A DNA stretch of 54,274 nt from Bacteroidota bacterium (GTDB lineage: Bacteria; Bacteroidota; Ignavibacteria; UBA10030; UBA8401). The stretch covers positions 1 through 54,274 of the forward strand of contig SXSI01000034.1 of the NCBI GenBank assembly GCA_005792285.1. Reading direction: 5' to 3'. Below, piece after piece: positions 854-16,149 of the stretch (position 1 is its first letter; each line of letters opens with the position of its first letter). The position numbers and the translations under genes are program-made. The notes beneath the pieces were generated by a model, which was given only the letters and a program-made list of their open reading frames with translations, ran no database searches and was not told where the DNA came from.

Positions 854-1618
854 TTAATTCCGGTTGACATTTATTTCCGTTTCTTGATTGGATTTTAATT
901 CTTCTTCTAATTCAGCAACACCGAGAGATGCAGCTGATATTTTTTTGGCACCAATATTTTTTAAACAACTTGCAACTTCCTCAATTGTTGAACCAGTTGT
1001 AATTACATCATCAACAAGCAAAATATGTTTGTTAAAAATCAAATCTGAATATTTATTCTCAATTACAAAAGCATCCTTTACGTTTTCTTTACGTTCGAGT
1101 AAATTTAATTTAGTTTGAGTAATTGTATATTTTTTTCTCTGGACAACATTCTTTAAAAGTGGGACTTGTAATATTTTAGAAATACTTTTTGCAATCAACT
1201 CAGATTGATTATGTCCCCTTTCTCTTTGTTTTACTTTATTTAATGGAATTGGAATTATACCATCGACATCAATAAAATTATTTTTATTCACTAATTGTTT
1301 AGCTAATTCTTCTCCCAATAATTCAGCAACAAATTTTCTACTTTCGTATTTCAACAGGTGTATTAATTTCTGGAATACTCCTTCGTGCTCAAAATAATAG
1401 AGTCCAAAAAAGTTATCAACTGCTCCATTCTTCCTGAATCTCTCTTTCATTATCTGAATTGTTCTATCTTCAGAACTTGTTCTTTTTATAGACAAAAGGC
1501 AACTACTACAAATTTTATTTTCTGATTCTGAAAGTAATTCGTCGCAAGTAAAACAAATAGGAGGAAAAATAAAATTTAAAAAAGGTGTTAAAAACTCATT
1601 TTGTAAATAGTTTTTCAC
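854..1618 (-). CDS. comF: ComF family phosphoribosyltransferase-like protein
   Basis: A 254-residue protein with the ComF layout: an N-terminal zinc ribbon with two CxxC pairs (C22/C25 and C37/C40) and a C-terminal phosphoribosyltransferase fold carrying the PRPP-binding loop LLVDDVITTGST at about 200-211. ComF proteins act in DNA uptake in competent bacteria and are found widely in non-competent ones, where the role is unclear. The start is GTG and overlaps the uvrB stop codon (GTGA), so translation is probably coupled to uvrB and the pair is one operon. The tail after residue 235 is Glu/Asn-rich and poorly conserved. Confidence 0.9.
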   Translation of the reverse strand: MKNYLQNEFLTPFLNFIFPPICFTCDELLSESENKICSSCLLSIKRTSSEDRTIQIMKERFRKNGAVDNFFGLYYFEHEGVFQKLIHLLKYESRKFVAELLGEELAKQLVNKNNFIDVDGIIPIPLNKVKQRERGHNQSELIAKSISKILQVPLLKNVVQRKKYTITQTKLNLLERKENVKDAFVIENKYSDLIFNKHILLVDDVITTGSTIEEVASCLKNIGAKKISAASLGVAELEEELKSNQETEINVNRN

Positions 1619-3636
1619 TTTTTGGAAATAGTCTTTGTTACTCTCCCAATTTCATCTCTAATTTGTGCTGCTCGTTCATATTCGAGTTCTTTGCTCGACT
1701 TATTCATTTGAACTTGCAACTCTTCAATTAAATCTTCTTTTTGTTCTTTTGTTAATTGAGTAATTATATTTTCATCTATTGGTTGATAATATGTAACTCC
1801 CTTTCCAAATGCACCTTTTGTTTTTACATCGGCGACTGCAGTTGAAGCAATAATCTCTTCATAAGATTTGTAAATTGTTTGAGGGGTAATATTATTTTGT
1901 AAATTATATTTCATTTGTATTTGTCTTCGCCGATTTGTTTCTGAAATCATTTTTCTCATCGATTCAGTAATTCGGTCGGCATACATTACAACTTTTCCAT
2001 TTACATTGCGTGCTGTCCTTCCAGCAGTTTGGATTAATGATCGTTCCGATCTGAGAAATCCTTCTTTGTCGGCATCAAGAATTGCAACCAAAGAAACCTC
2101 CGGCAAATCAAGTCCTTCACGCAATAAATTTACACCAACTAAAACATCATAATCTCCCAACCGTAATCCACGTAATATTTCAACTCGTTTAAGAGTATCA
2201 ACTTCCGAATGAATGTAGTTTACTTTGATAGAAATATTTTCCAAATATGCAGTTAAATCTTCAGCCATTCTTTTCGTCAGAGTTGTAATTAAACATCTTT
2301 CTTTTCTTTCAGTACGAGTTCTAATTTCTAAAATTAAATCATCTATTTGATTTTTTATTGGACGAACATTAACTTCGGGATCTAATAATCCTGTTGGGCG
2401 AATTACCTGTTCGATAATTGCTCCTTCCGATTTTTTTAATTCATAATCACCAGGAGTTGCGCTTACATAAATTACTTGTGGTACAAGTTGTTCCCATTCA
2501 TCAAATCTAAGCGGACGATTATCGAGTGCCGATGGCAATCTGAATCCATATTCAACTAAAGTTTCTTTTCGCGATCGATCACCGTGATACATTCCACCGA
2601 TTTGAGGAACTGACACGTGCGATTCATCTACAATTAATAAAAAATCTTTCGGATAATAATCAAAAAGACAAAATGGCCGCGAGCCAGCTTTTCTTGCTGC
2701 AATATGTCTTGAATAATTTTCAATTCCGTTACAGTATCCAACTTCAAGCATCATTTCAATATCAAAACGAGTTCGTTGTTGTATCCGTTGAGCTTCAACA
2801 TGTTTCCCCACTTCCTGAAAACCATCTGTTTGGATTGCAAGTTCTTTTTGGATTTCAATTACAGCTTTTTCTATTTGAGCTTTTGAAGTTAAAAATTGTT
2901 TTGCTGGATAAACTACTTCGTAATCACTTTCAGAAATAATTGTTCCATCCATTCTGTCAATAATTTGGATTTTCTCAACTTCATCTCCAAAAAATTGAAC
3001 TCTTAATGCTTGCTCATTTTCATAAGCGGGAATCACATCGAACACATCTCCGCGAACACGAAATGTTCCTCTTGTAAACTCATAATCATTTCTTACATAA
3101 TGGATATCAACTAATTTTCTGAGTAAACTATTTCTGGAAATTTTCATTCCTGTATGAATTGGAATTAATTGTTCCAACCATTCATCTGGTGTCCCAATTC
3201 CATAAATTGAGCTGACCGATGCAACTACAATTATATTTGGATCACCAGAAAGTAACGCACTTGTTGCACGTAAACGAAGTCGATCAATTTCATCATTTAT
3301 TGAAGAATCTTTTGCAATGTAAGTATCGGTTGTGGGAAGATATGCTTCCGGCTGAAAGTAATCGTAATAGCTTATAAAGAATTCAACTCTGTTTTTGGGA
3401 AAAAAACTTTTAAACTCTGCATATAATTGTGCCGCGAGAGTTTTGTTATGAGACATTACAAGAACCGGTTTGTTGACCTCTTCTATAACATTTGAAACTG
3501 TAAAAGTTTTACCACTTCCGGTTACGCCAATAAGTACTTGATGTTTGTCCCCTCGTTTAATTCCCTCAATAAGTTGACGAATTGCTTTCGGCTGATCGCC
3601 GTTTGGTTTGAATTCTGAAACTAAAGTGAATGGCAT
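1615..3636 (-). CDS. uvrB: UvrABC system protein B
   Basis: The damage-verification helicase of nucleotide excision repair. It receives lesions from UvrA, opens the strands and hands the site to UvrC. The 673-residue length is normal. Visible motifs are Walker A GVTGSGKT (37-44), the DNA-clamping beta-hairpin YYDYFQPEAYLP (90-101), the DESH Walker B box, helicase motif VGVNLLREGLDLPEV, the QTAGRTARN motif VI, and a C-terminal UVR domain (ELEYERAAQIRDEI) that contacts UvrC. Start ATG. comF follows with a four-base overlap. Upstream the gene borders the foreign-looking 3.7-5.4 kb island. Confidence 0.97.
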   Translation of the reverse strand: MPFTLVSEFKPNGDQPKAIRQLIEGIKRGDKHQVLIGVTGSGKTFTVSNVIEEVNKPVLVMSHNKTLAAQLYAEFKSFFPKNRVEFFISYYDYFQPEAYLPTTDTYIAKDSSINDEIDRLRLRATSALLSGDPNIIVVASVSSIYGIGTPDEWLEQLIPIHTGMKISRNSLLRKLVDIHYVRNDYEFTRGTFRVRGDVFDVIPAYENEQALRVQFFGDEVEKIQIIDRMDGTIISESDYEVVYPAKQFLTSKAQIEKAVIEIQKELAIQTDGFQEVGKHVEAQRIQQRTRFDIEMMLEVGYCNGIENYSRHIAARKAGSRPFCLFDYYPKDFLLIVDESHVSVPQIGGMYHGDRSRKETLVEYGFRLPSALDNRPLRFDEWEQLVPQVIYVSATPGDYELKKSEGAIIEQVIRPTGLLDPEVNVRPIKNQIDDLILEIRTRTERKERCLITTLTKRMAEDLTAYLENISIKVNYIHSEVDTLKRVEILRGLRLGDYDVLVGVNLLREGLDLPEVSLVAILDADKEGFLRSERSLIQTAGRTARNVNGKVVMYADRITESMRKMISETNRRRQIQMKYNLQNNITPQTIYKSYEEIIASTAVADVKTKGAFGKGVTYYQPIDENIITQLTKEQKEDLIEELQVQMNKSSKELEYERAAQIRDEIGRVTKTISKK

Positions 3637-3694
3637 TTATAAAGTTATTGAAGTTAAGATTAAAAATACAAAGTTATTAATTACTTTATTAGAG

Positions 3695-3928
3695 TTATTT
3701 TTTTATTTCGTTCATTAGTCTATCCGTTTCCGATAACGCAACAATTATTTCTTGATAATGTAAAATATCATCAAATTCTAATTTCCTTTCCTTACGGTCT
3801 TTGAGCCACTTTTGAGCTGGTTGATAACCACCAATGTAAAAGTCCCAAGCGATTTGCGGTACGTTGTCAAAATACTGCGTGTCGTTGATGTAAACTTTTC
3901 CGTTTTCGTATTTGGATTTTACAACCAT
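3695..3928 (-). CDS. orphan C-terminal domain of a type ISP restriction enzyme
   Basis: A 77-residue reading frame resembling only the extreme C-terminus of large type ISP (LlaBIII-like) restriction-modification enzymes. The matching stretch is VYINDTQYF, then FYIGGYQPAQKWLKDRK, then a helical end with ALSETDRLMNEI. Full enzymes exceed 1000 residues and carry nuclease, helicase and methylase domains; none is present here. It has its own ATG with a plausible ribosome site (CGGAG, six bases before). It may be expressed as a stand-alone small protein, or be the tail of a lost enzyme that happens to keep a start. It lies directly downstream, in transcription sense, of two attC-like hairpins. Confidence 0.65.
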   Translation of the reverse strand: MVVKSKYENGKVYINDTQYFDNVPQIAWDFYIGGYQPAQKWLKDRKERKLEFDDILHYQEIIVALSETDRLMNEIKK

Positions 3929-3966
3929 ATTGTCTCCGTCTATTGGATATTGTGTTATGTATTTCT

Positions 3967-4051
3967 CAACGGTTGGGCAAAATTAAATGTGCTGCAAAAG
4001 CGTTGGCTTGTGTGTCGGCTTGCAGCTCTTTTAATTTTGCGAAGGGTTGGC
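3967..4051 (-). repeat. attC-like imperfect hairpin B
   Basis: A long inverted repeat. Inner arms at 3977-3997 and 4020-4040 match at 19 of 21 positions around a 22-base loop. Outside them an unpaired spacer of about five to six bases is followed by outer arms CAAC (3967-3970) and GTTG (4046-4049). Stem, unpaired spacer and terminal AAC/GTT triplets are the architecture of integron attC recombination sites, although the outer boxes match RYYYAAC/GTTRRRY only partly. Read on the minus strand, the type ISP fragment starts about 40 bases beyond it. A 35-codon frame crosses the hairpin and is probably spurious. Confidence 0.5.
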
Positions 4052-4110
4052 ATTTTGTTCATTGTTTTTCTGTCGGTTTATTGTCGAGTTTTCGGTCCTC
4101 CTACACTTGC

Positions 4111-4207
4111 TTGTAACGTTTTGCGGCTACCCGAAGGGCGGGACTTTTACCACAAAACTGTCTTTGGAACACGAAACCCCGCCTTTTGGGTAGGTGCTGT
4201 TATAGCC
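4111..4207 (-). repeat. attC-like imperfect hairpin A
   Basis: A second long inverted repeat, 17 bases after the stop of the DUF1648 gene in transcription sense. Inner arms at 4127-4142 and 4178-4193 match at 14 of 16 positions, and the two differences allow G-T pairing. Outer boxes are CTATAAC (4199-4205, minus-strand reading) and GTTACAA (4111-4117), separated from the inner stem by unpaired spacers. The total of about 97 bp is within the usual attC length range. The position just after a gene stop is what a gene cassette would show. The GC-rich stem contrasts with the AT-rich surroundings. Confidence 0.5.
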
Positions 4208-4224
4208 AGTGCTTTGTCCATTCT

Positions 4225-4725
4225 TCATTGTTTTGTCTTGAATGATTTAGTCACAAAATAAATCAGCGAAATAAAAATCAGTCCTATTGTCAGTGGTAAA
4301 AACCATACTCCAAGTCCTTCTGCTTCTCCGTTTGCATTTTGAATTGTCTTGAATGCAATAAGTCCGAAAATAAAAACGATAATAAGTTTAAGATATCTTA
4401 TAAGTCTTGTCGCATTGGTATATTGTCTAAAAGCGTTGTCTTGCGTAATACCGGTTGGATAATTGAATACATGTGGAAACTTATTTAATACTGTCAGGCC
4501 TATGAATAAAATTGTTGCAATTAAGGGCAAAGTCAAAATAGTCGCTTTTCCGCCAAACCCGTCAGCTTGACCTGCTCCATTATAATGTGTCGAAATAGTT
4601 TCAGGTAAGTTTGAATAGTTTGTAATTGTCAGACCCCAAACTGCAAGAATTAAAAACCAACCAACAATTTCAAATGATTTGTCGGCTGTTGTGAGTTCTA
4701 ATTTTATTTTTGGTCTTTCTTCCAT
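4225..4725 (-). CDS. DUF1648 domain membrane protein
   Basis: About 166 residues with four predicted membrane segments. The N-terminal part resembles DUF1648, the domain at the start of SdpI-like immunity and signalling proteins: after the first membrane helix comes LPETISTHYNGAGQADGFGGK, a variant of the family signature. The biochemical function is unknown. I place the start at ATG 4725 because the reading frame two codons upstream would need TTG. Sixteen to twenty-two bases separate it from the DCC gene upstream, suggesting co-transcription, and hairpin A follows its stop closely. The base composition (many GACA/TGTC words) is unlike the surrounding genes and suggests transfer. Confidence 0.75.
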   Translation of the reverse strand: MEERPKIKLELTTADKSFEIVGWFLILAVWGLTITNYSNLPETISTHYNGAGQADGFGGKATILTLPLIATILFIGLTVLNKFPHVFNYPTGITQDNAFRQYTNATRLIRYLKLIIVFIFGLIAFKTIQNANGEAEGLGVWFLPLTIGLIFISLIYFVTKSFKTKQ

Positions 4726-4747
4726 TGTCAATTTATTTTGTCTGTTG

Positions 4748-5155
4748 TCATTGCAAAAATCTTAGTTTGATGTCCTGTGTCGGAACCATACAAGTGTCCC
4801 GCTTTCCAAATATTTTATATCGTCTCTTTGCAATTAGGTTGTAAATAAAATCCCTAAATGGTTTTGGAAAGATAATGAAAACATAAAACAATTTCCAAAC
4901 TCCTCCCAACTCTTTTAATACATGAAGTCCAGCCGATGATTTGAGAAAGTATTTGTCTCCGTTTATGAAAACGAAAGAGTCAAAATCATCTGTCGGTAAA
5001 CCAAACTTTTTAAGGAATGTTTGTCCACTTTCAGATTGCAATGAAGCAAATTTGAATTTTCCTTTTGTGTCTCTTTTGATTGTGAATTGAACAATGCTGT
5101 TGCATAGATTGCAAACTCCGTCAAAGAGCAAAATGTGTGACACGTTATTGCTCAT
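4748..5155 (-). CDS. DCC family thiol-disulfide oxidoreductase-like protein (DUF393)
   Basis: A 135-residue protein of the DCC (DUF393) family, named for its DxxCxxC motif, seen here as FDGVCNLC near residues 10-17. Family members have a thioredoxin-like fold and are predicted redox proteins; the physiological substrate is not known. The rest follows the family: FASLQSESGQ, a short VFINGDKYFLKSSAGL strand-helix unit and a C-terminal segment ending YKIFGKRDTC. The ATG overlaps the end of the epimerase remnant upstream, and such epimerases and DCC proteins plausibly formed one operon before the truncation. Length is normal for the family. Confidence 0.85.
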   Translation of the reverse strand: MSNNVSHILLFDGVCNLCNSIVQFTIKRDTKGKFKFASLQSESGQTFLKKFGLPTDDFDSFVFINGDKYFLKSSAGLHVLKELGGVWKLFYVFIIFPKPFRDFIYNLIAKRRYKIFGKRDTCMVPTQDIKLRFLQ

Positions 5156-5353
5156 TGTTCAGAATGTTTTTGAGTTCGATTTCTGTTTTAATAATTACCT
5201 CACCGATTTCAAGAAGCCACGCTGGAGAAGGCAATCCGATTTTAACTTTCATTGGCTGTCTGAAAGTTTTCATCAGCGTTTTGTTGTCAATGGGGTTTGG
5301 TGCTGAACAATTATAAACTCCTTTCAATTCTTTGTGTGATTGAAAAAATAATT
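5145..5353 (-). pseudogene. remnant of a TIGR01777-family epimerase, both ends lost
   Basis: An open stretch of about 69 codons reading into the epimerase-like sequence ELKGVYNCSAPNP, then FRQPMKVKIGLPSPAWLL, which matches the C-terminal half of TIGR01777 (YfcH-like) SDR epimerases. The Rossmann N-terminus is absent. The last family segment (normally a VxPxxLxxxGFxF stretch) is also missing, because the frame ends at NNEQ over the DCC start codon. No ATG precedes it; the first possible start is a TTG at 5327. The homologous sequence stops near 5353, exactly where the REP-like palindrome begins. Confidence 0.65.
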
Positions 5354-5449: not shown

Positions 5450-7492
5450 TTACTTCTTCCTCGCTACTTTATAAAGCGTTAATCCCATAATAACAAAACA
5501 GGCAACTCCAAAAATTTCATATCCTGAAGCGCCAAGATTATTATGAATTACTTCTTCAAAATTTAAACTTTTCATTATGTCTTCATAAAACACCGTAGCA
5601 ATAGCAACAATTACACCAAACAAAGCGCCACCGGCAACAAGCCCTGTAGCAAAAAGTGAACCTTTCCCAAGTTCAGCATCTTCTTCGGTTTCATTTTTAC
5701 GTTTTCTCATGAAATCTGCAACACCTTTAATTGCGCCGCCGGCAAAAATTGGAAGCGTTGTCGAAAGTGGTAAATATAATCCAACTGCAAATGAAAGTGC
5801 TTTTACATTGCACAACTCCATTACAATTGAAATAAATACGCCGACCAAAACAAACTGCCAATCTAAATTAAAACTTAACAATCCTTTAATTAAAGTTGCC
5901 ATTAAAGTTCCTTGTGGCGCCGGATATTTTTCTGTGCCAATTGCGTGAGTAATTCCTTGCGATAACATTTCGGATGTTGGTGTATCAAGTATTTGAACTG
6001 TCCAACCAATTACTGCCGATGAAACTATTGCTCCAACAAATAATGCCATCTGTTGATATCTTGGAGTTGCGCCAATAATGTATCCGGTTTTTAAATCTTG
6101 CGAAGTTGCTCCGCCATTTGCTGCAGCGATGCAAATCATTCCACCAACTACAAGTGCCATTGGTTCGTAAAAATATCCTGTCCAACCAACGGTGATAAAA
6201 ATTAAACTTGTTCCCATTAAAGTTGCAATCGTCATTCCGGAAATTGGATTTGAAGATGAACCGATGATTCCGACAATTCTACTTGAAACAGTTACAAAGA
6301 AAAATCCAAACACAATTACAAGAATTCCAATTAATAATTTATTTAAAATTGAGTCGCCCGGAATTTGTGGCAACACTGCGAGTAAAATTACTAAAACTAA
6401 ACTTCCAACAATTACTGTTACAAAAGATAAATCATTTTGTGTGCGTTCAATTTTTACTGCCGATGCTTTATCTTTTAATGATGCAATGCTTCCTTTAAAT
6501 GATGAGACAATTGTTGGTAAAGTTTTTAAAAGTGTGATGAATCCGCCAGCTGCAACTGCGCCTGCGCCAATTTGTCGAACATAAGCTCTGTAAATTGCAG
6601 GAGCATAATTACTAAATGTGTGAGTTACAGGATCCCATCCACCGGGACCACCTGCTGTTGCTAAATCTTTTAAATATCCAAGTTTGATAAGTTGGAATGC
6701 AATAATATCGGCAGGAACAAGTGTTGCAATTAGTGGAATTAAACCGAGCCATGCGAGAACGCCGCCGGCAACAAGTACGCCGGCAATTTTCGGTCCAATA
6801 ATATAACCAACTCCCATATATTCCGGAGTGATTTCGCCATTTACTGTTGCGCTTGGGAAATATTTATTTGTTTGATTTGAAACCCAAGTCGGTGCTTCTG
6901 CAATTACATGAAAAACTTTTTGCAAAATTGCATACACGAATGCAAATCCCAAACCTTGATATGCGGTTTTAGAAAAATCTCCACCTTTTTCACCTGCAAT
7001 TAAAACTGATGCGCATGCAGTTCCTTCTGGATATGGAAGATTGCCATGTTCTTGCACAATTAAAGAACGACGAAGTGGAATCATCATTAAAGTACCGAGC
7101 AATCCGCCAAACATTGCGAGTGTAAAAATTGTCCAATAATTAAAATAACTTGCTCCGTTACTTTCGGCGGATAAAAATAAAAATCCGGGCAAAGTAAAAA
7201 CTACACCAGCTGCGATTGATTCGCCAGCCGAGCCAGCGGTTTGGATTATATTATTTTCTAAAATTGTGGTTTTCAAAATTTTATTCCCGATTGAAATTGC
7301 AAGTACCGCAATTGGAATTGAAGCCGAAACTGTTAGCCCGGCTTTCAGCGCCAAGTAAACTGTAGCTGCGCCAAATACAATCCCAAAAAATGCGCCAAGC
7401 AAAACTGATTTTACAGTGAACTCTGCCATTAAAGAATCGTTTGGGACGTACGGTTTGAATTCTACTTTTTGTGCTATTTCTGAATTAGACAT
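5450..7492 (-). CDS. OPT family oligopeptide transporter
   Basis: A 680-residue inner-membrane transporter of the OPT/YSL superfamily, which imports small peptides (or metal chelates) with protons. It has roughly 14-16 hydrophobic segments. The N-terminal GAATVYLALKAGLTVSASIP and NIIQTAGSAGESIAAG blocks are characteristic of the bacterial OPT group, and GNLPYPEGTACA and the GGATSQDLKTGYIIGATP repeat are family signatures. The start is ATG with a strong ribosome site (AAAGGAG, five bases before). It is the last gene of a probable three-gene operon after an outer-membrane barrel and proline dehydrogenase, which suggests uptake of proline-containing peptides; this last point is inference. Confidence 0.93.
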   Translation of the reverse strand: MSNSEIAQKVEFKPYVPNDSLMAEFTVKSVLLGAFFGIVFGAATVYLALKAGLTVSASIPIAVLAISIGNKILKTTILENNIIQTAGSAGESIAAGVVFTLPGFLFLSAESNGASYFNYWTIFTLAMFGGLLGTLMMIPLRRSLIVQEHGNLPYPEGTACASVLIAGEKGGDFSKTAYQGLGFAFVYAILQKVFHVIAEAPTWVSNQTNKYFPSATVNGEITPEYMGVGYIIGPKIAGVLVAGGVLAWLGLIPLIATLVPADIIAFQLIKLGYLKDLATAGGPGGWDPVTHTFSNYAPAIYRAYVRQIGAGAVAAGGFITLLKTLPTIVSSFKGSIASLKDKASAVKIERTQNDLSFVTVIVGSLVLVILLAVLPQIPGDSILNKLLIGILVIVFGFFFVTVSSRIVGIIGSSSNPISGMTIATLMGTSLIFITVGWTGYFYEPMALVVGGMICIAAANGGATSQDLKTGYIIGATPRYQQMALFVGAIVSSAVIGWTVQILDTPTSEMLSQGITHAIGTEKYPAPQGTLMATLIKGLLSFNLDWQFVLVGVFISIVMELCNVKALSFAVGLYLPLSTTLPIFAGGAIKGVADFMRKRKNETEEDAELGKGSLFATGLVAGGALFGVIVAIATVFYEDIMKSLNFEEVIHNNLGASGYEIFGVACFVIMGLTLYKVARKK

Positions 7493-12251: not shown

Positions 12252-14615
12252 ATGAAAAAAACTTTTATCATTCTTTTCGCAATAATTGTCTCTAAAAATA
12301 TTACTGCGCAACCACTTCACAATGCCGGTTCAAATCACGCAAATAAATTTGAACAGCTAAATTATCTTCTTCCCACTCCAAATGAATATCGAACTGCAAG
12401 TGGAACAACGGGAAATAAATATTGGCAGCAACGTGCCGATTATGATATTTCAGTTGAAATTGATGAGCCAAATAATTTACTAATCGGTTCTGAAACTGTA
12501 ACTTATTTTAACAATTCTCCTGATCCTCTAACTTATCTTTGGCTTCAGATTGATGAAAACTTTCATCATCCAAACAGCGATAACAATCGAGCAAACACAA
12601 GTAAGATGAATCCAAGAATGAATAGTGATCAACTTAAAAATCTTGAACCTTGGAAAACATTAGATGGCTACGGACTAAATATTTTAAAACTTCTTGATAA
12701 AAATGACAATCCATTAAAATATAAAATCAATCAAACAATGTTAAGAATTGATTTGCCAAAGCCACTTTCTTCCGGCGATAAATTTGTTTTTAAAGTTGAT
12801 TGGAATTATAAATTAAATAATAAAGATGATGTACCTGGCAGAGGTGGTTATGAATTTTTTAAAGAAGATGGAAATAATCTTTACTCAATTGTGCAATGGC
12901 ATCCACGAATGGCAGTTTACAGCGATTTTCAAGGATGGCAGCATAAACAATTTCTCGGCGGTGCTGAGTTCGCTTTAACTTTTGGGAATTTTAAAGTTAG
13001 TATTACAACTCCAAGTGACCACATTGTTGCTGCAACCGGTGAATGTAAAAATTATAAAGAAATGTTAACTGCTGAACAATTTGATAGATGGAAAAAAGCT
13101 TTAACATCAAACGAACCAATTGAAGTTGTAACATTGGAAGAAGCTACAAATGCAGAAAAAAATAAAAGTAAATCTACAAAAACGTGGATTTATGAAGCTG
13201 AAAATGTACGGGACTTTGCATTTAATTCTTCACGAAAATTTATTTGGGATGCAATGGTTGTAAATATCAGTGGGAAAAAATCGATGGCGATGAGTTATTA
13301 TCCGAAAGAATCTTACAATCTTTATAGAAAATATTCTACAAAAGTTATTGTGCACACACTTAAAACTTACGGAAAGTTTTCAATACAATATCCATATCCT
13401 GTTGCAATTTCGGTTGAAGCGGCAAACGGAATGGAATATCCGATGCTAAGTATGAATTACGGTAGATGTGAAAAAGATGGAACTTACAGTGAAGCAATTA
13501 AATACGGAATGATTGGTGTTATAATTCACGAAGTTGGTCATAATTTTTATCCGATGATTATTAATAGCGACGAGCGACAGTGGTGGTGGATGGATGAAGG
13601 AATGAATACATTTGTGCAATATTTAACAGAGCAGGAATTTGATAATAATTTTCCCTCTTCGCGCGGACCGGCAAAATTTATTGCGCCATATATGCGATTA
13701 CCAAAAAACGAACTCGAACCAATTATGACTTCGGGAGAATTAGTTTTACAAGTCGGGCAAAATGCTTACGCGAAAGCAGCAACTGGTTTAAATATTTTGC
13801 GCGAAACAATTATGGGACGTGAACTTTTTGATAAAGCATTTAAAACTTACGCTGAGCGATGGGCTTTTAAACATCCAACTCCTGCCGATTTTTTTAGAAC
13901 AATGGAAGATGCAAGTGGTATTGATTTGGATTGGTATTGGCGCGGTTGGTATTTTGGAACTGATCCTGTTGATATTTCTCTCGATAGTGTAAAAGTTTTT
14001 AAACTCGATACTTCTCCAACTGCAAGTTTAGATGGCTCTCGTTTTGATAGATCTTTTGATATTGGTAAAGAGAGAAATAAAAATGATAAGTCAATTAAAT
14101 TTCTTATTGATGGAGATTCATCACTTAAAGATTTTTATTATTACAATCGTGGTGCTGATGATTTAATGAAGTTGAATAAAACTATCTCTCTTAATGATTC
14201 AAACTTTGATAGAAGTAATTATGATAAATGGAGCAACAAATTTATTTATGAATTAACTTTTACAAATAAAGGTGGAATGTTAATGCCAGTTATTTTGGAA
14301 TGGAAGTATGCAGATGGAACAAAAGAGATTGAAAGAATTCCTGTAATAATTTGGAGATTAAATGAATATCAAGTTTCAAAAGTATTTATTAAAGATAAAG
14401 AAGTTGTTTCGGTTGAACTTGATCCTTTAAAAGAAACTGCAGATATAAATGAAGAAAATAATTTATGGCCAATGAGATCAATTCAGTCAAAGTTCCAATT
14501 ATTTAAATCACAAAGAGCGGGTTCAAGAGGTGGTGGTGGCGAACGAAATGCAATGCAGGAAGCAAATAAACCCGCCGAAGGTGGAAAATCAGTAGAAAGT
14601 GGTAATAAAAAATAA
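12252..14615 (+). CDS. M1 family metallopeptidase, secreted
   Basis: A 787-residue zinc peptidase related to aminopeptidase N. It has a signal peptide (MKKTFIILFAIIVSKNITAQ), an N-terminal beta domain, and a catalytic domain with HEVGH at 426-430, a third ligand at E449 in WWMDEG, and a GMEYPM stretch in place of the usual GAMEN box. It belongs to the form with the NSDERQWWWMDEG signature. The C-terminal 40 residues are Gly/Ser/Arg-rich and look disordered; there is no T9SS sorting domain. It is expected in the periplasm or at the surface, digesting peptides. It begins a plus-strand run with the reductase and tadA, nine bases apart in each case. Confidence 0.93.
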   Translation: MKKTFIILFAIIVSKNITAQPLHNAGSNHANKFEQLNYLLPTPNEYRTASGTTGNKYWQQRADYDISVEIDEPNNLLIGSETVTYFNNSPDPLTYLWLQIDENFHHPNSDNNRANTSKMNPRMNSDQLKNLEPWKTLDGYGLNILKLLDKNDNPLKYKINQTMLRIDLPKPLSSGDKFVFKVDWNYKLNNKDDVPGRGGYEFFKEDGNNLYSIVQWHPRMAVYSDFQGWQHKQFLGGAEFALTFGNFKVSITTPSDHIVAATGECKNYKEMLTAEQFDRWKKALTSNEPIEVVTLEEATNAEKNKSKSTKTWIYEAENVRDFAFNSSRKFIWDAMVVNISGKKSMAMSYYPKESYNLYRKYSTKVIVHTLKTYGKFSIQYPYPVAISVEAANGMEYPMLSMNYGRCEKDGTYSEAIKYGMIGVIIHEVGHNFYPMIINSDERQWWWMDEGMNTFVQYLTEQEFDNNFPSSRGPAKFIAPYMRLPKNELEPIMTSGELVLQVGQNAYAKAATGLNILRETIMGRELFDKAFKTYAERWAFKHPTPADFFRTMEDASGIDLDWYWRGWYFGTDPVDISLDSVKVFKLDTSPTASLDGSRFDRSFDIGKERNKNDKSIKFLIDGDSSLKDFYYYNRGADDLMKLNKTISLNDSNFDRSNYDKWSNKFIYELTFTNKGGMLMPVILEWKYADGTKEIERIPVIIWRLNEYQVSKVFIKDKEVVSVELDPLKETADINEENNLWPMRSIQSKFQLFKSQRAGSRGGGGERNAMQEANKPAEGGKSVESGNKK

Positions 14616-14623
14616 TTTACAAT

Positions 14624-15682
14624 TTGAATGATAATTCTTTCTTACTTTATGGTGCAAATGGTTACACTGGTAGATTAATTTTAAAACTTACATCCGATTA
14701 TAATTTAAATCCGGTTTTAGCTGGAAGGAATGAAAGTGCATTAGTTCAACTCTCGGAAGAATTTAACAGAGATTATTTTGTTCTTGATTTATCTGAAACA
14801 GAAAAATTAGAATCTGTTTTAAAAAAATTTCCATTGGTTTTACATTGTGCAGGTCCATTTATAAATACTGCTCAACAAATGATAAAAGCCTGTTTGAAAA
14901 CAGGGACACATTACATAGATATTACGGGAGAAATAGTTGTTTTTGAATTAGCAAAAAAATTTAATGATGTAGCAATAAAATCCAATATTATGTTAATGCC
15001 CGGTGTTGGTTTTGATGTTGTTCCAACTGATTGTCTTGCCTTATTTTTAAAATATAAATTACCCGATGCAACAGAATTGAAATTAGCATTTGCATCAATC
15101 GGTGGAGGATTAAGTCACGGTACCGCAACTACAATGGTGGGTGGTTTGGGAGGCGATGGAGCTGAAAGAAAAAATGGAAAAATTATTCGTGTTCCGCTCG
15201 GACAAAAAAGTATGTGGGTAGATTTTGGATTAAAAAAATTATTTGTAATGAGCATCCCGTGGGGAGATATTTCAACTTCATTTACAACTACCGGGATTGA
15301 TAATATTGAAACTTATACCGGCACTTCTTCAAAAATTTATTTTTTATTAAAATTCCAAAAATTATTTAATTGGATTTTGAGAAGTAAGTTTATTCGTAGA
15401 ATTGTAAAAAATAAAATTGATAAATCATTATTTGGACCATCAGATAAAGTTCGTACAAAATCAAAAGGATTAGTTTGGGGAGAAGTGAAAAATGCTAATG
15501 GGAAAACTTTCAGCGCAAGATTAATTGGTCCGGAAGGTTATACATTAACAGCACACAGTAGTTTAATAATTGCAAAAAAAATATTAGCTGGAAACTTTAA
15601 ACTTGGCTATCAAACTCCTGCTGGTTGTTATGGCGAAGATCTTATACTTGAAATACCCGATGTTAAAAGAGAAGTAATTTAA
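14624..15682 (+). CDS. saccharopine dehydrogenase-like NAD(P)-binding reductase
   Basis: A 352-residue protein with an N-terminal Rossmann fold (FLLYGANGYTGRLI, residues 6-19) and the saccharopine dehydrogenase-like pattern HCAGPFINTAQQMIKACLKTG and HYIDITGE near 76-107. This resembles the trans-acting enoyl reductase/saccharopine reductase-like group rather than true lysine enzymes. The substrate is unknown; relatives act on lipids or polyketides. The C-terminus lacks the second saccharopine-binding domain of lysine biosynthesis. It lies nine bases after the M1 gene and eight before tadA, so the three are likely co-transcribed although functionally unrelated. No ribosome site is obvious. Confidence 0.82.
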   Translation: MNDNSFLLYGANGYTGRLILKLTSDYNLNPVLAGRNESALVQLSEEFNRDYFVLDLSETEKLESVLKKFPLVLHCAGPFINTAQQMIKACLKTGTHYIDITGEIVVFELAKKFNDVAIKSNIMLMPGVGFDVVPTDCLALFLKYKLPDATELKLAFASIGGGLSHGTATTMVGGLGGDGAERKNGKIIRVPLGQKSMWVDFGLKKLFVMSIPWGDISTSFTTTGIDNIETYTGTSSKIYFLLKFQKLFNWILRSKFIRRIVKNKIDKSLFGPSDKVRTKSKGLVWGEVKNANGKTFSARLIGPEGYTLTAHSSLIIAKKILAGNFKLGYQTPAGCYGEDLILEIPDVKREVI

Positions 15683-15690
15683 AATCTTTT

Positions 15691-16149
15691 ATGGAAACTA
15701 AAAATGAATTATGGATGAAGCTGGCATTACGAGAAGCGCAAAAAGCATTCGAGCAAAAAGAAGTTCCGGTTGGTGCTGTTGTAGTTTATAAAAATTTAAT
15801 AATTGGTAAAGGTTATAATCAAGTTGAAATGTTAAAAGATCCAACTGCTCACGCTGAAATGATTGCAATTTCTGCTGCCGCTGCATTTTTGGAATCGAAG
15901 TGGTTGAAAGATTGCACTCTTTATGTTACGATGGAACCTTGTCCAATGTGCGCAGGTGCAATTATACTTTCAAGAATTCCAAAATTGGTTTTTGGTTGTT
16001 ACGATCCTAAAATGGGTTCAACAGGAACTCTTTATACAATCACAGAAGATAAAAGATTAAACCATTCAGTCCACACAATTGGAGGAGTAAAGGATGATGT
16101 TAGCGGAAATTTATTAAAAGAATTTTTTAAAGGAAAAAGAAAAGTTTAA
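15691..16149 (+). CDS. tadA: tRNA-specific adenosine deaminase
   Basis: A 152-residue zinc deaminase that converts A34 of tRNA-Arg(ACG) to inosine. Zinc and catalytic residues are visible: H54 and E56 in TAHAEM, and C84 and C87 in [10 protein letters not shown]. The length and the YDPKMGS segment agree with TadA rather than cytidine deaminase. Its substrate tRNA is encoded at 11495-11568. It overlaps the 3' end of the convergent prfA by four bases, and no terminator separates them. Confidence 0.95.

Follow-up and report, generated by a model that had tools for sequence, protein, structure and literature searches.

A divergent attC-type hairpin in an Ignavibacteria genome and a candidate second class of integrons with a HARP-like-domain integrase

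The variable interval and its two hairpins

The window (the whole stretch of DNA that was analysed, 54,274 nucleotides) contains a variable interval between a gene that we take to be uvrB and a gene that we take to encode an OPT-type transporter. Two long hairpins in this interval, at 3967-4051 and 4111-4207, had been described in an earlier note as attC-like sites of a possible integron cassette array remnant, and both are present there. The features of the interval are as follows.

1615-3636, minus strand: presumed uvrB, conserved left border of the variable interval; homology with a genome of the same genus (G001) extends up to about window position 3625
3695-3928, minus strand: 77-aa C-terminal fragment of a Type ISP restriction enzyme, apparently the remains of cassette cargo (PF18135, positions 271-342 of 342, E 1.1e-18)
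3967-4051, minus strand: hairpin 1, probable leader hairpin ("type B") and not an attC, from its fold and from its copies and their distances
4052-4103, minus strand: putative 5' leader of the cassette that begins with the R' box, with the same layout as in L016/L051, L019/L052, and L219
4104-4212, minus strand: full extent of the candidate attC-type site containing hairpin 2 (4111-4207), from covariance-model family R1
4104-4117, minus strand: R' box GTTACAAGCAAGTG, putative start of the next cassette, from the element flanks
4124-4142, plus strand: one arm of the inner stem, from the fold and the covarying stem
4177-4197, plus strand: other arm of the inner stem, from the fold and the covarying stem
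4199-4212, minus strand: R'' box GCACTGGCTATAAC, putative end of the DUF1648 cassette, from the element flanks
4225-4731, minus strand: putative cassette gene for a DUF1648 protein of 168 aa, with its stop 12 nt before the R'' box
4748-5155, minus strand: gene for a DCC1-like thiol-disulfide oxidoreductase (PF04134, E 2.6e-31)
5145-5327, minus strand: 60-aa ORF with no Pfam match, a probable gene fragment
5450-7492, minus strand: presumed OPT-type transporter gene, conserved right border; homology with G001 resumes at about window position 5451

The transporter protein is 95% identical in G001, where unrelated genes fill the interval between uvrB and the transporter gene and no clean empty site is seen; the attC model found nothing significant in that interval (best 12 bits, E 0.14). 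The DCC1-like gene is missing from the corresponding interval of the same-genus genome and probably belongs to the same variable insert. The small ORF that the earlier note had placed beyond hairpin 1 is the one at 3695-3928 and is a gene fragment, covering just the C-terminal 77 aa of a Type ISP enzyme, while the gene stop that the note had placed 17 bases from a hairpin is that of the DUF1648 gene relative to hairpin 2. At the gathering score, Rfam recognized only two tRNAs in the window.

The fold of hairpin 2 as DNA was compared with dinucleotide shuffles: on the plus strand, the bottom strand with respect to the genes adjoining the hairpin, it is more stable than expected (z -2.6, equalled by 3 of 200 shuffles), and on the opposite strand it is unremarkable (z -0.65, 47 of 200). 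Recurrence and covariation are better evidence for this element than fold energy. DNA searches with 120-nt and 87-nt queries, which reach close copies only, detected partial copies in relatives and on two further contigs of this genome, and a covariance model was needed for the family (R1). This model gave 12 matches within the genome, spread over 7 contigs and in some cases at the very ends of contigs (C3 and C33), as would be expected because repeats break an assembly, and it detected the family in 26 of the 98 genomes of the order. Recurrence of the 97-bp element after unrelated small genes, which had been proposed as a check, was seen both within the genome and in relatives. In an alignment of nine copies, both sides of the stem have changed in 10 of 12 pairs, and pairing is retained in 82% of cells, a value that none of 500 shuffles reached and that fell to 35-47% when the register was slid. 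The outer AAC/GTT triplets noted earlier lie at 4115-4117 and 4199-4201, and the suggestion of a divergent attC type is borne out in that the GTT ends agree only in part with the classical consensus. On these sequence features, hairpin 2 is very probably an attC-type site of an integron-like gene-cassette system. By analogy with 94 cassettes delimited below, crossover at this site would be expected between 4117 and 4116.

Hairpin 1 has the stronger fold (z -5.9 and -5.4 on the two strands, with none of 200 dinucleotide shuffles as good), and its symmetric stem and outer AAC/GTT triplets would suit the reading, made in the earlier note, that it is a second attC. That reading is highly improbable in view of where its copies lie (window 3967-4051; L051 3086-3161; L052 140-216; L219 2305-2381; L017 1504-1579): in the window, L016/L051, L019/L052, L017, and L219, a crossover or crossover-like site precedes the copy at a fixed distance of 66-69 nt, and in L219, a Bacteroidales MAG, this site is attI-like. 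The leader position is seen in five loci, and no cassette boundary falls at hairpin 1, so we rejected it as an attC on account of its position inside cassette leaders; of the two hairpins proposed as attC sites, only hairpin 2 retains that identity. Since its copies occupy the 5' leaders of cassettes beyond the crossover, hairpin 1 would not be a recombination site and appears instead to be a leader element of cassettes. Weaker, partial matches occur in L018 and L009 without such a layout. Downstream of hairpin 1 lie an hsdM-type methylase gene (L219), a 1460-aa ORF (L051), or small genes (L052), and in the window it precedes the tail of the Type ISP enzyme. Its conservation after the cassette crossover extends to distant lineages; a role in the control of translation or transcription would be a guess.

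Cassette boundaries and attI-like sites

In integrons, the first bases of a cassette come from the attC of its own circular form, and therefore the R' box after attC n has its pairing partner in the R'' box of attC n+1 and not in the R'' box that it adjoins. We examined this signature among 62 elements of the order, in which 17 consecutive same-strand pairs were testable. Between elements n and n+1, 82 of 119 box positions match; permutations of these 17 pairs gave a mean of 49.9, and none of 100,000 reached 82, whereas the two boxes within one element match on average at 2.7 of 7 positions. All seven variable positions match in five neighbour pairs. Pairs without a match (L010 6 to 173, L013, L053, L054, L061, L063, and L009 2538 to 5766) would be expected because an intervening element may have been lost or missed. 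For the DUF1648 cassette, the expected partner of its start, GTTATAGCC, was not found within the window; a GTTATAGCCAATTG site is present on another contig of the same genome (C39, L057).

In the sets of loci tested, cassette starts pair with the R'' box at their own end well above chance. Across 94 cassettes, which were picked by positions 1-10, the boxes pair at positions 1-9, and position 11 is mismatched in 88, with A in R' and mostly C in R''. Pairing resumes at positions 12-15, which were weighed only in choosing between candidates, in 77, 81, 72, and 64 of the 94, as against 39.5, 28.5, 24.3, and 27.5 for shuffled pairs. IntI reads the polarity of attC by unpaired bases, and the fixed unpaired point in this long duplex box is reminiscent of them, by analogy. 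The inner boxes are paired (from covariation and from inner duplexes in the 94 attC sites) and the ends are AAC/GTT; the canonical attC consensus, RYYYAAC/GTTRRRY, is found only in part, mostly as GTTA followed by variable bases. The hairpins have 38-205 nt between the boxes. Their predicted fold is better on the bottom than on the top strand in 53 versus 13 of 78 attC sites (35 versus 10 of 49 sites in the window's family). An ORF of at least 60 aa lies on the integrase strand in 66 of 71 cassettes, with seven further cassettes having no ORF, and the median leader is 43.5 nt. Cargo includes restriction-modification, PIN, SUKH, phosphotransferase, and caspase-domain genes. One array (L205, from F. 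saccharophilum) contains two near-identical, non-adjacent cassettes (12875-13810 and 14983-15918; 970 bp, encoding a 311-aa HEAT-repeat protein), as after cassette duplication or re-insertion, and the first cassette of L120 (5695-5860) is gene-less, its R'' box ending after only 52 nt.

No integrase gene lies in the window, as the earlier note had remarked, and we located a recombinase on another contig of the same genome (C3, locus L058) that is not a canonical IntI. Its gene (3241-4368, 375 residues) encodes a tyrosine recombinase, and an attI-like sequence, GTTAGCGGTCATTG, is found at +100, i.e., 100 nt after its stop. On the same strand, the recombinase gene is followed by an inverted repeat, by AAG and, across the presumed point of insertion, TTAGCGGTCATTG, and then by an alpha/beta-hydrolase gene. 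The contig ends with an attC that belongs to the window's family, and the R'' box of this attC finishes in ACCGCTAAC, the complement of the site after the recombinase. From this arrangement, C3 appears to be the platform of the system, with recombinase, attI-like site, one cassette, and an attC of the same family.

Similar arrangements were observed elsewhere in the order. By eye, an attI-like site follows 16 of 19 recombinase genes (exceptions L127, L131, and L139), and most of the contigs break off shortly afterwards. Of nine loci examined, eight have an exact reverse complement of the first 9-10 nt of attI at 0.05-2.2 kb downstream, at the start of a hairpin. A match of at least 15 of 18 nt downstream of the gene was detected for 5 of 8 genes of this class, for 0 of 14 IntI genes, and for 0 of 9 Xer genes. 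In L114, a 17/18 reverse-complement match was noted 258 nt from the IntI gene (at 5606), on its divergent side, which is where classical arrays lie; the match may belong to a canonical array or be due to chance. Junctions were examined with a threshold of at least 72% identity over the 100 nt before the crossover: 22 locus pairs are 72-89% identical there and 51-67% identical beyond, against a random background with a mean of 57% and a maximum of 64%. We read these alignments as different cassettes at the same attI junction. Both the box signature and the junctions place attI next to the integrase gene.

The recombinase and its distribution

All 32 members examined contain PF00589 and a SAM-like domain. 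The N-terminal domain resembles Pfam HARP with E below 0.01 in 6 of the 32, its score in the members shown being below the Pfam gathering score. The integron integrase model TIGR02249 matches only at about 2-179 and 233-315 and skips about 60 positions (about 180-238), and five proteins of the new class score 190-245 bits over the whole model, for which the cut-off is 265; the IntI-specific insertion near patch III is absent from the new recombinase. The NCBIfam XerA-type model NF040815, whose product name already includes the words "integron integrase", scores the recombinase near or over its cut-off. An AlphaFold2 model of the Flavobacterium saccharophilum protein (mean pLDDT 84.5, pTM 0.54), whose core is 67% identical to that of the recombinase in the window's genome, has archaeal XerA as its best Foldseek match in the PDB (5hxy, 31% identity), followed by an integron integrase (2a3v).

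Phylogenetic analysis of the order members together with Escherichia coli XerC and XerD, class 1 IntI1, and a cyanobacterial IntI yielded three groups, namely Xer (support 100/100), IntI (100/99), and the new class (88/59, weak); the tree has no outgroup, so that it does not fix which two of the three are sisters, and its IntI and Xer branches are long. Since the three groups are separate, the recombinase is neither a canonical IntI nor XerC/D. A first, quick tree had placed IntI inside the new class, an arrangement that scored lower than, and did not reject, a tree in which the new class is united, and the careful tree separates them.

By a hand count, the new recombinase scores above 200 bits in 33 of the 98 genomes of the order, and the next scores below this value are 199 (G008:C192) and XerC/D-like matches of at most 193. 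It is only somewhat commoner among the genomes with the attC family (12 of 26) than in the order overall; draft assemblies break at cassette arrays. In G001, a recombinase gene of the new class (L119, contig C37) is interrupted by stops in the N-terminal region, and its contig ends 138 nt after it. A canonical IntI, defined by a TIGR02249 score over the cut-off, was detected in 23 of the 98 genomes and not in the genome of the window, and no attC of the window's family lies near IntI at the 18 loci searched (L100 and L102-L118).

Beyond the order, the recombinase profile retrieved 80 named loci, with many of the records being MAGs, from Bacteroidota, Bacillota, Halanaerobacter, Nitrospirae, Nitrospinae, Spirochaetes, and others, including a few archaeal MAGs. 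For attI, we used 18 nt from each GTT located 20-260 nt after the stop codon; a 12-nt box match was dropped because controls reached 10-11 of 12. The best match was at least 15/18 in 23 of 53 named loci versus 5 of 980 control sets, and at least 16/18 in 13 of 53 versus 0 of 980. When chains of cassettes were walked under a stricter rule, at least one good cassette was found in 34 of 54 loci versus 37 of 540 opposite-strand windows, and at least two in 10 of 54 versus 4 of 540; the other 20 of the 54 named loci lack a good first cassette, which chance yields in about 7% of windows. The longest chain comprises eight cassettes (F. saccharophilum DSM 1811), followed by six in Flavobacterium sp. 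245, five in Paenibacillus xylanivorans A59, four in Halanaerobacter jeridensis DSM 23230, and three in Saccharibacillus kuerlensis DSM 22868, with the last cassette being weak in some of the walked chains. The arrays run in one direction and consist mostly of one-gene cassettes. A four-cassette chain of the new class was also seen in a MAG labelled Rhodobacteraceae (L167), which may be misbinned. The distribution suggests that the system occurs in many phyla of bacteria in which current integron searches would miss it.

Proposed mechanism, alternatives, and known systems

In the mechanism that we propose, a cassette would be a small circle with usually one gene and one attC. The tyrosine recombinase encoded on C3 would recognize the folded bottom strand of attC and join it, between G and TTA, to the attI about 100 nt past its own gene or to another attC, and repeated captures would give rise to one-directional arrays downstream of the integrase gene. 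In the window, the variable interval would hold part of such an array, without integrase and decayed. We infer from sequence, and not from an observed event, that the recombinase carries out this reaction and that it acts on single-stranded attC; the HARP-like N-terminal domain would then replace the substrate recognition of the missing IntI domain.

Several other explanations should be considered. The elements might be attC sites of ordinary integrons that are recombined in trans by a canonical IntI, with the new recombinase as a bystander, which IntI's acceptance of many attC sites and its presence in 23 genomes of the order would allow. Against this, IntI over the cut-off is missing from the very genome that carries the window and has no family attC near its 18 loci, and it occurs in only 5 of the 26 family-bearing genomes (hand count), which is about the chance expectation. 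Moreover, the attI signature goes with the new integrases rather than with IntI or Xer, and the arrays of named isolates begin beside the new integrase gene. We consider this explanation unlikely, and canonical IntI was rejected as the partner because none over the cut-off was found in the same genome, no family attC site adjoins the 18 loci searched, and none of 14 IntI genes shows the downstream signature. Recombination by Xer proteins at dif-like sites, as in pdif modules (gene modules between double-stranded XerC/XerD sites), is suggested by archaeal XerA being the nearest structure and by the NF040815 score, and yet the partner sites here differ in kind, a short attI facing hairpin attC sites with 38-205 nt between boxes. 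The true XerC/D proteins of the same genomes form a separate clade, none of nine has such downstream sites, and we did not find XerC/XerD proper together with short duplex dif-like sites on both sides. This makes the Xer/dif explanation very unlikely.

The remaining alternative is that these are REP/MITE-type non-autonomous palindromic repeats, or terminator-like hairpins, that chance to follow genes. Hairpins directly after stop codons, GC-rich stems, and several copies per genome are all features of such elements, but they do not predict an outer box that complements the one in the following element in place of the other box of the same element, and such complementarity is what the neighbouring elements show. 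Nor do they predict an association with a single recombinase gene whose stop is followed by a matching site, or a switch of sequence at one fixed point of the junctions, and copy boundaries were not found to be independent of their neighbours. We regard this origin as extremely improbable. The cassette-array reading put forward earlier holds for the hairpin 2 locus: the interval between uvrB and the transporter gene, which contains an intact attC-type site, an intact small gene, a hairpin-bearing leader, and two fragment-like ORFs, looks like a decayed, integrase-less remnant of a cassette array, away from its integrase.

It is probable, judging from sequence and gene order, that the recombinase represents an overlooked second integron class, i.e., a lineage of integrases with a HARP-like domain that bind folded attC sites, are encoded upstream of and co-directional with their arrays, and occur in many phyla; it would have been overlooked because integron searches require the IntI-specific domain. 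As part of the same reading, this class would include cultured Flavobacterium, Paenibacillus, and Halanaerobacter as well as some archaeal MAGs. If true, either Xer-like ancestors gave rise to integrons on two occasions, or the common ancestor of integrons did not have the IntI domain. If the class is active, cassettes would be captured much more widely, a resident integrase may exist for some of the arrays that lack IntI, and comparing the two solutions would make it possible to test how integrons and single-strand site recognition originated. The literature searched, with preprints and most subscription journals lying outside its scope, contained no description of such a class. IntegronFinder and integron surveys are described as requiring the IntI-specific domain near patch III (PMC9668308), and integrons are reported to be rare in Bacteroidetes and Firmicutes (PMC9024848).

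Compared with canonical integrons (class 1 and sedentary chromosomal), the system shares an integrase gene, an attI, one-directional arrays of mostly single-gene cassettes, hairpin attC sites with AAC/GTT ends, apparent insertion between G and TT, box pairing within the circular cassette, and a bottom strand with the more stable predicted fold. It differs in that the IntI-specific insertion is missing from the integrase, which usually carries a HARP-like domain at its N-terminus, in that attI lies after the stop of an integrase gene directed towards the array, and in the long box with its conserved A-C mismatch at position 11. With XerA, XerC, and XerD the recombinase shares the catalytic and SAM-like core, whereas it falls in a clade separate from XerC/D, carries an extra N-terminal domain, and goes together with attI and cassette arrays where Xer recombinases have a single dif site. 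The archaeal integrons have attI directly downstream of the integrase gene and arrays of hairpin attC sites, many without an integrase (PMC9668308), and in all these respects, including integrase-less arrays, they resemble the present system; their IntI proteins carry the IntI-specific domain that the new recombinases lack (PMC9668308). Because this domain, a defining feature of canonical integrons, was looked for and is absent, we do not class the system with them; from its sequence organization, it appears to work like an integron and to be a variant set apart from the canonical one.
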